A stretch of DNA of 64,000 nucleotides from Burkholderia mayonis (lineage in GTDB: Bacteria > Pseudomonadota > Gammaproteobacteria > Burkholderiales > Burkholderiaceae), in NCBI RefSeq assembly GCF_001523745.2, contig NZ_CP013386.1, positions 744,001 through 808,000 on the forward strand, read 5' to 3'. A program made the translations under genes and the position numbers. The notes under the pieces are model-generated. The model was not told the origin of the DNA and did not search any database. It was given only the letters and a program-made list of their open reading frames with translations. Of this stretch, positions 18,154 through 19,554 are shown piece after piece (the stretch's first letter is position 1; every line of letters begins with the position of its first letter).

Positions 18154-19227
18154 TCAGTTGCCGCTGCCGCGCGCGACGCGCCGCGCCTTCACCGATTCGG
18201 CGAGGCCTTCGAGCACCTTCACACTGTCGTCCCAGTTGATGCACGCGTCGGTGATGCTCTGGCCGTAGGTCAGCTCGCAGCCTTCCTTCAGATCCTGGCG
18301 GCCCTCGACGAGATGCGATTCGACCATCACGCCGACGATCCGCTCGTCGCCCGCCGCGATCTGGCGGCCGATGTCCGCACAGACCGGGATCTGGTTCTCG
18401 TGCTTCTTCGAGCTGTTCGCGTGGCTCGCGTCGATCATCAGACGCGCGGCGAGACCCGCCTTGCCGATGTCCGCGCATGCGGCGTTCACGCTGTCCGCGT
18501 CGTAGTTCGGCGCTTTGCCGCCGCGCAGGATCACGTGGCAGTCCTCGTTGCCGGCCGTCGACACGATCGCCGAATGCCCGCCCTTCGTCACCGACAGGAA
18601 ATGGTGCGGCTGCGACGCGGCCTTGATCGCGTCGACCGCGATCTTCACGTTGCCGTCGGTGCCGTTCTTGAAGCCGACCGGGCACGACAGCCCCGACGCG
18701 AGTTCGCGGTGCACCTGCGACTCCGTCGTGCGCGCGCCGATCGCGCCCCACGAGATCAGGTCGGCGATGTACTGCGGGCTGATCATGTCGAGGTACTCCG
18801 TGCCGGCGGGCAGCCCCATCTCGTTGATCTGCAGCAGCAGCTCGCGCGCGGTGCGCAGGCCGTCGTTGATCTTGAAGCTGTTGTCGAGGTGCGGATCGTT
18901 GATGAGCCCCTTCCAGCCGACCGTCGTGCGCGGCTTCTCGAAGTACACCCGCATCACGATCTCGAGCTCGTTCTCGAAGCGCCCGCGCTCCTTGACGAGC
19001 CGGCCCGCGTATTCGAGCGCCGCCTTGGTGTCGTGAATCGAGCACGGCCCGATGATGACGATGAGGCGATCGTCCATCCCGTGCAGGATCCGGTGCATCG
19101 CCTGGCGCGAGTTGTAGATGAGTTCCGACACCGCTTCGCTCAGCGCGAATTCGCGGATCAGGTGCGCAGGCGGAATCAGTTCCTTGAGTTCTCGGATGCG
19201 GACGTCGTCGGTATTGTGCGGGGGCAT
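18154..19227 (-). CDS. aroG: 3-deoxy-7-phosphoheptulonate synthase (DAHP synthase, class I)
   Basis: 357 residues, typical of AroG/AroF/AroH enzymes. Landmarks include VIIGPCSIHD (metal-ligand Cys), YFEKPRTTVGWKGLINDP, PVGFKNGTDG, GHSAIVSTAGN, HVILRGGK, MIDASHANSSK and VMVESHLVEG. It condenses phosphoenolpyruvate and erythrose 4-phosphate, the first step of aromatic amino-acid synthesis. A GGAG lies about ten bases before the ATG. The 290-base leader has the full structure of a transcription attenuator with an aromatic-rich leader peptide (separate entries), so expression is probably controlled by charged tRNA levels for Phe, Tyr and Trp. Confidence 0.97.
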   Translation of the reverse strand: MPPHNTDDVRIRELKELIPPAHLIREFALSEAVSELIYNSRQAMHRILHGMDDRLIVIIGPCSIHDTKAALEYAGRLVKERGRFENELEIVMRVYFEKPRTTVGWKGLINDPHLDNSFKINDGLRTARELLLQINEMGLPAGTEYLDMISPQYIADLISWGAIGARTTESQVHRELASGLSCPVGFKNGTDGNVKIAVDAIKAASQPHHFLSVTKGGHSAIVSTAGNEDCHVILRGGKAPNYDADSVNAACADIGKAGLAARLMIDASHANSSKKHENQIPVCADIGRQIAAGDERIVGVMVESHLVEGRQDLKEGCELTYGQSITDACINWDDSVKVLEGLAESVKARRVARGSGN

Positions 19228-19357: not shown

Positions 19358-19389
19358 AAAAAAAACCGCCGGGTTCGCCGGCGGTTTTT
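19358..19389 (-). terminator. Attenuator terminator in the aroG leader (3:4 hairpin)
   Basis: Read on the minus strand, segment 3 CCGCCGG (19378-19384) pairs with segment 4 CCGGCGG (19366-19372) across a five-base loop. The stem is extended by A5:T5 pairs and followed by eight T residues (19365-19358). It sits about 130 bases upstream of the aroG start and 29 bases after the leader-peptide stop. Segment 3 can instead pair with CTGGCGG inside the leader ORF. Confidence 0.85.
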
Positions 19390-19417
19390 CGGGAATTCGG
19401 TTGCGCTTCGCGCGCCA

Positions 19418-19483
19418 TCACTCCTCTCGATCCGCCAGCGGTCTGAGATGCCAAAAAAAGTAAAAGTAAAACTTTGCGGACAT
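19418..19483 (-). CDS. aroG leader peptide with seven consecutive aromatic codons
   Basis: A 21-codon ORF whose residues 5-11 are FYFYFFW, followed by HLRPLADREE and a stop. An in-frame ATG six codons upstream (19501) could give a 27-residue version; no clear ribosome binding site distinguishes them. Seven consecutive Phe/Tyr/Trp codons are far beyond chance and match the logic of amino-acid attenuation, in which a ribosome starved of charged aromatic tRNAs stalls here. The start region contains segment 1 (TCCGCCA on the minus strand, complement of 19483-19489) and codons 15-18 contain segment 2 (TGGCGGA, complement of 19431-19437). These two pair perfectly, while segment 2 can alternatively pair with terminator segment 3. 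Confidence 0.85.
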   Translation of the reverse strand: MSAKFYFYFFWHLRPLADREE

Positions 19484-19525
19484 GGCGGAGATGCGGTTCA
19501 TCAATGAAGCGATAACAGAACGAGA

Positions 19526-19554
19526 TTTATACCTGGTCGGCGCGCGGCTGGCAA
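19526..19554 (-). promoter_or_regulatory. Promoter of the aroG leader
   Basis: On the minus strand TTGCCA (complement of 19549-19554), a 17-bp spacer and TATAAA (complement of 19526-19531) form a good sigma-70-type promoter. Transcription would begin near 19519, about 18 or 36 bases before the two candidate leader-peptide starts. Confidence 0.75.

Follow-up and report, generated by a model that had tools for sequence, protein, structure and literature searches.

How is transcription of aroG adjusted to the supply of aromatic amino acids in Burkholderia mayonis? The gene encodes 3-deoxy-7-phosphoheptulonate (DAHP) synthase, the first enzyme of the shared pathway, and lies on the minus strand of a stretch of 64,000 nucleotides (contig NZ_CP013386.1, positions 744,001 to 808,000; hereafter the window, whose numbering is used throughout). 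Its product is assigned as an AroG equivalog (NF006723, curated cut-off passed). Upstream of it, from 19554 to 19358 on the minus strand, a promoter-like pair of hexamers, a short open reading frame (ORF) rich in aromatic codons and a terminator with eight T residues follow one another in this order, and the terminator is separated from the aroG ATG (19227) by 130 nt. Judged from sequence and folding, this leader can with high confidence be regarded as a device for ribosome-mediated transcription attenuation that would act via charged tRNA-Phe and tRNA-Tyr and, in this species, also tRNA-Trp. Since aromatic codons stand together with a switchable stop signal before aroG, and relatives of this arrangement occur in many bacteria, the leader very probably senses a shortage of Phe, Tyr or Trp. 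An earlier reading of the bare sequence (the original prediction) had proposed these parts and their order, and they are present where it placed them. The features are as follows.

19549..19554, minus strand: -35-like hexamer TTGCCA, seen in the sequence; of 12 example rows shown, 8 have ttgcca or ttgtca
19526..19531, minus strand: -10-like hexamer TATAAA, seen in the sequence, 17-nt spacer from the -35-like hexamer
19483..19489, minus strand: upstream candidate segment 1, TCCGCCA, from the original prediction; can pair with TGGCGGA and overlaps the A of the conserved ATG
19418..19483, minus strand: leader ORF of 21 codons, MSAKFYFYFFWHLRPLADREE, stop TGA at 19420-19418; an in-frame ATG at 19501 would make 27 codons
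19451..19471, minus strand: putative regulatory codons TTT TAC TTT TAC TTT TTT TGG, Phe-Tyr-Phe-Tyr-Phe-Phe-Trp (FYFYFFW), seen in the sequence
19445..19448, minus strand: downstream candidate segment 1, UCUC, which can pair with GAGA at 19428-19425
19432..19440, minus strand: segment 2, CGCTGGCGG, 5' arm of the antiterminator, within the leader ORF and defined by complementarity to segment 3
19423..19428, minus strand: GAGAGG, near-invariant extension of segment 2 in the alignment of relatives, with alternative pairings
19376..19384, minus strand: segment 3, CCGCCGGCG, terminator 5' arm and start of the loop; pairs with segment 2
19358..19389, minus strand: intrinsic terminator, 12-bp stem 19389-19378/19372-19361, 5-nt loop, T8 at 19365-19358, -18.4 kcal/mol
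18154..19227, minus strand: aroG, DAHP synthase, 357 aa (NF006723 above curated cut-off; TIGR00034)

In the proposed mechanism, RNA polymerase would transcribe the leader while a ribosome translates MSAKFYFYFFW.... A shortage of a charged aromatic tRNA would stall this ribosome on the run with its front edge just short of segment 2. Segment 2 could then pair with segment 3, no terminator would form and aroG would be transcribed. With plentiful tRNAs, the ribosome would move on towards the stop codon and cover segment 2; segment 3 would pair with segment 4 instead, and transcription would end at the T-tract. What sequence comparison and folding show is which parts are present, how they are arranged and conserved, that 2:3 and 3:4 can pair, and the geometry of the ribosome on the leader.

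The seven consecutive Phe, Tyr and Trp codons of the original prediction stand at 19471-19451, and the leader thus holds an ORF with codons for the amino acids made by the pathway. FYFYFFW is the only seven-codon run of F, Y and W in the 6.59-Mb genome, as found by a whole-genome scan whose list was judged by reading. When the whole genome was scanned for chance occurrences of seven TDB codons, 62 matches, often overlapping, were obtained, among which the aroG leader run alone is free of Cys, Leu and stop codons. The same pattern scan also met a long TGTTGC-type triplet repeat outside the window (G000 C1:677579-677728). All four Phe codons of the leader are TTT, as compared with 4 TTT versus 74 TTC counted over four longer window ORFs that include aroG and tldD; possibly, these are slow codons that sharpen stalling.

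Conservation was followed in a named set, for which AroG-bearing species genomes were scanned and the best 80 of 586 related stretches were used. It spans Burkholderia, Paraburkholderia, Caballeronia, Trinickia, Mycetohabitans, Cupriavidus, Ralstonia, Pandoraea and others. At 79 of these 80 loci, the core CTC-N3-CCGCTGGCGG-N3-GAGAGG (with at most one substitution) precedes aroG, flanked by an aromatic-rich ORF on its 5' side and a T-tract on its 3' side. The one exception is L085 from a Candidatus Vallotia, which has no intact core before aroG; at this endosymbiont locus the aromatic ORF is short and truncated, the core is altered, and the switch seems to be decaying. After removal of near-duplicates, 34 rows were aligned. 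The run, the core and the terminator are conserved in them and the spacer between stop codon and terminator is not; UCUC is invariant (34/34). Standard pairs between segments 2 and 3 occupy 95.8% of the cells. In the terminator, A-U to G-C compensatory changes occur at two pairs of the 3:4 stem, in 3 and 5 of the 34 sequences; in a shuffle control, 83 of 500 also reached two such pairs and none of 500 reached 8 cells. The original prediction had staked itself on a conserved aromatic run and complementary pairing in related species. This comparison bears it out, as the run and the 2:3 and 3:4 pairings are kept far beyond Burkholderia while the peptides diverge.

The spread of the element was explored with a covariance model built from the 34 aligned sequences, which was applied to a sample of 300 genomes from the order at an E-value cut-off of 0.01 and matched in 69 of them. 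In 59 genomes, our own included, the match lies before an AroG homologue and is accompanied by a leader ORF in which nine codons include five or more F/Y/W; the other 10 were set aside, as they lack AroG in the stretch examined and look like terminators or other sequence. AroG was found in 223 of the 300 genomes (E 1e-100). Of these, 59 had confirmed leaders; in 80 others the region upstream of one aroG gene was inspected, and the remaining 84 were left out. Among these 80 upstream regions, 11 were accepted as carrying leaders and 69 were not. At least five F/Y/W in nine codons occurred in 10 of the 80, versus 0 of 80 reverse complements and 8 of 400 shuffles. Acceptance was partly by judgement: L177 (four aromatic codons) and L240 (three) were taken for a leader-like tail and a matching terminator, and L212 (five, no terminator found) was rejected.

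Among 185 genomes drawn from the class, eight matched, namely our own, G049, two true cases in another order and four without AroG. Within that other order, 12 of 61 genomes matched, and 11 of the 61 hold aromatic leaders before AroG, in three families; the remaining match, L261, has no AroG and was not counted. The element is thereby placed in 17 families, 14 of our own order and 3 of the second. As leaders occur in only part of the genomes examined, it is common but patchy.

Some matches fell elsewhere. L156 (G111 C2:137940-139051) comprises a Val-rich short ORF, VVVRVVVVGVV, a strong terminator and then an acetolactate-synthase-like gene, as named from its translation; by its sequence it resembles a branched-chain attenuator that the model picked up via its terminator. 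At L248 (G337 C174, near 1121) a stretch coding for KFYFYFFW is followed by a hairpin, with no AroG found at the locus. In our own genome, no second attenuator was present among the nine model matches up to E 10: one is the aroG leader, L119 and L125 are full-length matches with no aromatic leader, and six cover the terminator part only. Two further DAHP synthase matches of this genome, L002 and L003, have no aromatic leader, with at most two F/Y/W in nine codons within the 600-base stretches scanned. L002 (G000 C2) contains one TGA inside the aligned stretch.

The RNA switch itself was examined in a distant set of 69 loci from 14 families, consisting of the 58 model-found leaders (our own left out) and the 11 from upstream scanning, with 67 distinct leader peptides among them. 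All 67 leaders contain Phe, 62 contain Tyr and 30 contain Trp. The signal is thus pooled and led by Phe, with Tyr almost always included and Trp joining in some lineages, B. mayonis among them. The claim that three aromatic amino acids are read at once applies to this species but not to every leader of the set. In the window, segments 2 and 3 form 9 bp, CGCTGGCGG (19440-19432) with CCGCCGGCG (19384-19376), including one G-U; the pairing of CTGGCGG with CCGCCGG had been foreseen, G-U included, and is longer than the 7 bp given for it. The antiterminator pairing is that of GGCGG with CCGCC. With segment 2 defined in the distant loci as the best complement of segment 3, its start follows the last aromatic codon by a median of 9 nt (interquartile range 7-11), and 4-29 nt separate its end from the stop codon. 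At least six contiguous 2:3 pairs are present in 58 of the 69 loci, and the duplex is better than with shuffled tails (p <= 0.05) in 44. Segment 2 lies in frame 2 of the leader in 50 loci, in frame 1 in 7 and in frame 0 in 12. The two bases that flank this pairing, 5' of GGCGG and 3' of CCGCC, covary: for 68 scored loci (L153 was left out), T/A was counted 29 times, T/G 2, C/A 4, C/G 18 and other combinations 15 times, with a Fisher p of 1.7e-8 that is not corrected for relatedness. Judged without a tree, co-change has probably happened more than once, as both matched states are found within each of the families f10, f20 and f23. An antiterminator that excludes the terminator is hence conserved in relatives, and an intrinsic terminator lies between leader and aroG.

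Whether the ribosome could operate such a switch was addressed by folding the leaders up to the end of segment 3 while a ribosome footprint was moved codon by codon, positions being given as the A site relative to the last aromatic codon. Helices across the ribosome were either allowed or forbidden, the latter of which we think more realistic. Without a ribosome, the mean probability of the 2:3 pairing, P(2:3), over the 69 loci was 0.37. With such helices forbidden, it was 0.79-0.95 at -6 to 0 and fell to 0.50, 0.13 and 0.04 at +1 to +3; for the 34 Burkholderiaceae rows, the values were 0.17 without a ribosome, 0.84-0.99 on the run, and 0.89, 0.54, 0.17 and 0.02 at +1 to +4. With helices allowed, the 69 loci gave 0.56-0.71 at -5 to 0 and 0.22, 0.07 and 0.01 at +1 to +3. 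The boundary of the switch shifts by one or two codons with the footprint size. In the RNA of the window, P(2:3) was at least 0.89 for each stall up to Trp and 0.002 two codons further on. A ribosome on the regulatory codons is thus predicted to leave segment 2 free and one standing 3-4 codons further to cover it, in Burkholderiaceae only if helices across the ribosome are forbidden. From these scans, the starved and fed states are well predicted.

The weakest part of the attenuator model is segment 1, for which there are two candidates and mixed tests. TCCGCCA, named in the original prediction, does pair with TGGCGGA and has counterparts in most aligned Burkholderiaceae; it lies 5' of the conserved start and counts as a candidate segment 1. 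In most aligned relatives, a TCCGCCA-like element is found inside the first leader codons, with 89.1% of cells paired with segment 2 over the 34 sequences; at this position the window reads TCCGCAA. The alternative is formed by the pyrimidines right after the run (UCUC in Burkholderiaceae; UUCC, UCCC or UUUUCU elsewhere), which face GAGA, GGAA, GGGA or AGAAAG. This hairpin appears compensatory by eye, and formal tests are mixed. A register-fixed 1:2 test was matched by 0 of 5000 permutations with Watson-Crick pairs, but the register was picked after viewing the data; with one locus per family, the fraction was 0.07, or 0.20 with G-U. GAGAGG may in addition lengthen the antiterminator helix through pairs with the stretch immediately 5' of segment 3, for which 0 to 2 of 5000 permutations, and a fraction of 0.09-0.17 with one locus per family, did as well at the right flank of segment 2. 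The complete 1:2/2:3/3:4 logic of the original prediction therefore stands for 2:3 and 3:4, with their conservation and compensatory changes, and has mixed support for 1:2.

The start of transcription and translation was likewise compared. The near-consensus promoter that had been proposed is present as TTGCCA-17-TATAAA, yet a simple promoter scanner reported no promoter at the aroG leader, because it demands T as the last base of the -10 element. Of 79 rows (the window and 78 named loci), 72 have a -10-like hexamer (TATAAA, TATAAT, CATAAA or TATATA) no more than 75 nt 5' of the leader ATG, a count reported without a chance rate. The simple scanner did not report the aroG-leader terminator either; stem and T-tract are visible in the sequence, T8 at 19365-19358 following the 12-bp stem as the eight U residues had been described. 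The leader ORF, given before as either 21 or 27 codons, is better read as 21, since the ATG at 19483 has a counterpart in all 79 named loci that keep the core. A Shine-Dalgarno-like 4-mer precedes the approximate aroG start in 69 of 80 rows (the window and 79 named loci) and the leader in 4 of the 69 loci of the order-wide genome set.

Several results weigh against this account. Before the leader ATG, none of the 80 rows has a Shine-Dalgarno-like 4-mer. Shuffled leader untranslated regions, which are purine-poor, seldom hold one either (51 of 1600), and the lack is real as a count and not clearly under the expectation from base composition; moreover, a reference of PMC4046766 speaks in its title of a leader peptide formed in the absence of a ribosome binding site, for ilvBNC of Corynebacterium glutamicum. 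Within the 34 aligned sequences, no two-sided change was found in 2:3. At the covarying position, 19 of 68 loci have no standard pair and two have G-U, and the cognate preference of segments 2 and 3 by duplex energy is modest (mean rank 0.366). The post-run region is no stabler than shuffles (mean z -0.01; p <= 0.05 in 3 of 69 loci versus 9 of 69 control windows 5' of the leader), and two swap tests of the 1:2 hairpin were negative. Most of the 80 upstream regions examined for want of a confirmed leader are without the element, hence its patchiness. Folding was at equilibrium rather than co-transcriptional, and with helices across the ribosome allowed, P(2:3) in the 34 Burkholderiaceae rows was 0.17 without a ribosome, 0.54 at -4 and only 0.14-0.22 at -2 to 0; these low values at late stalls are tentatively attributed to exposure of the upstream segment 1. 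For the window RNA, P(2:3) was already 0.997 in one fold and 0.946 in the helix-forbidding scan without any ribosome, so that the untranslated state is not predicted to terminate. P(2:3) also exceeded 0.8 without a ribosome in 18 of the 69 other loci, and only 39 of 69 gained more than 0.2 upon stalling. Leader translation, stalling, readthrough in cells and the dominant tRNA are inferred.

Could the conserved elements serve another purpose? A nascent-peptide arrest akin to TnaC, in which the leader peptide including its tail PLADREG would stall the ribosome and free aromatic amino acids rather than charged tRNAs would be sensed, could explain why this tail is well conserved inside Burkholderiaceae. 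However, at four named loci (L032, L040, L049 and L064) the leader frame shifts within the run or immediately behind it, yet the RNA core is retained (L049 and L064 are drafts and could contain errors; L064 has no near stop). Moreover, the core of the 69 distant loci occurs in all three frames with differing tails, so it is the RNA that is conserved rather than the peptide, and the peptide conservation expected of contacts in the exit tunnel is not seen. We thus consider arrest by the peptide very unlikely. Still harder to credit, and close to negligible in our estimation, is that the hairpin is a plain terminator of the upstream tldD next to a chance small ORF, with aroG driven from elsewhere. 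tldD does precede the leader on this strand (its C-terminal motif was recognised in 71 of 81 rows, the window and 80 named loci), and there is a different terminator-like site, a hairpin with T-tract at 19585-19573 of the minus strand just 5' of the aroG promoter, where the tldD transcript may end. Yet the promoter-like pair, with a -10 that recurs in relatives, sits between tldD and the leader terminator, and the aromatic ORF and segment 2 are conserved along with this terminator. The tldD motif was recognised at only 11 of 69 leader loci versus 19 of 69 leaderless ones (lower bounds, as the stretches are short); therefore, the element does not track tldD.

Attenuation may also be real and yet incomplete as a description, if the released leader RNA or peptide acts in trans as well, as is reported for the Sinorhizobium trp leader peptide. 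The precedent of peTrpL, described in a passage of PMC7298713, and the very strong conservation of the RNA core inside Burkholderiaceae would fit such a role, but GAGAGG can be explained by alternative pairings, and we regard an additional function in trans as unlikely.

Taken together, attenuation by charged aromatic tRNAs remains our preferred reading, and it points to a way in which the committed step towards Phe, Tyr and Trp could be controlled in these bacteria. The order concerned corresponds to the Betaproteobacteria in the GTDB scheme. No report of an aroG attenuator in Betaproteobacteria was found in the open literature, and the main texts searched for the word aroG did not contain it; an earlier prediction may be present in Vitreschak 2004 or Lopatovskaya 2010. 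According to a passage of PMC4046766, Rfam includes attenuator RNAs; in Rfam 15, no family reached its gathering score anywhere in the window, and between 19200 and 19700 there were only sub-threshold matches to the small RNA sroD (best E 0.072, 21.6 bits versus a gathering score of 50). With neither a report in Betaproteobacteria nor an Rfam match, the leader is regarded as a new, widely distributed case of amino-acid attenuation, a kind of control that is already known. It is widespread (17 families) yet without a match in Rfam 15. The TyrR and TrpR regulons have been described for gammaproteobacterial lineages, according to part of PMC5343134. The chances seem even that one RNA family with a GGCGG:CCGCC switch is the principal aromatic control of entry into the chorismate pathway in many families of two orders, where it would replace TyrR and TrpR, its freely evolving leader, translated without a Shine-Dalgarno sequence, sensing Phe, Tyr and in some cases Trp as one pool. 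As the natural leaders form a series with varying codon content and reading frame, they lend themselves to testing the roles of position and codon choice in attenuation.

The element is not the first DAHP synthase attenuator, given the aroR-aroF system of C. glutamicum, which was reportedly described by Neshat et al. in 2014. There, in passages of PMC11802643 and PMC4046766, attenuation of aroF by the AroR leader, with Phe-Tyr-Phe, raises expression under Phe limitation. The likeness, as far as these descriptions go, is that a DAHP synthase gene is attenuated by an aromatic leader, but AroR belongs to an Actinobacterium and has a run of three residues; the two were compared by description only. 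Attenuators have also been predicted before DAHP synthase-tyrA in Vibrio (Merino database, Table 7 of PMC1173090), again before a proteobacterial DAHP synthase gene, but as a database prediction with another gene order and no aromatic leader described in that passage. In Escherichia coli, the DAHP synthase genes are under TyrR and TrpR, as stated in parts of PMC11878033 and PMC11802643 and in agreement with the contrast drawn in the original prediction. The same passages describe the E. coli pheA and trp attenuators, in which the leaders pheL and trpL contain an ORF with codons for the end product and act by transcription attenuation. The aroG leader resembles these in both respects; it differs from them in that it would control the first enzyme of the shared pathway and read Phe, Tyr and partly Trp together, and in that the leader ORF itself contains segment 2, whose end is 4-29 nt away from the stop codon, and is preceded by no Shine-Dalgarno-like sequence.
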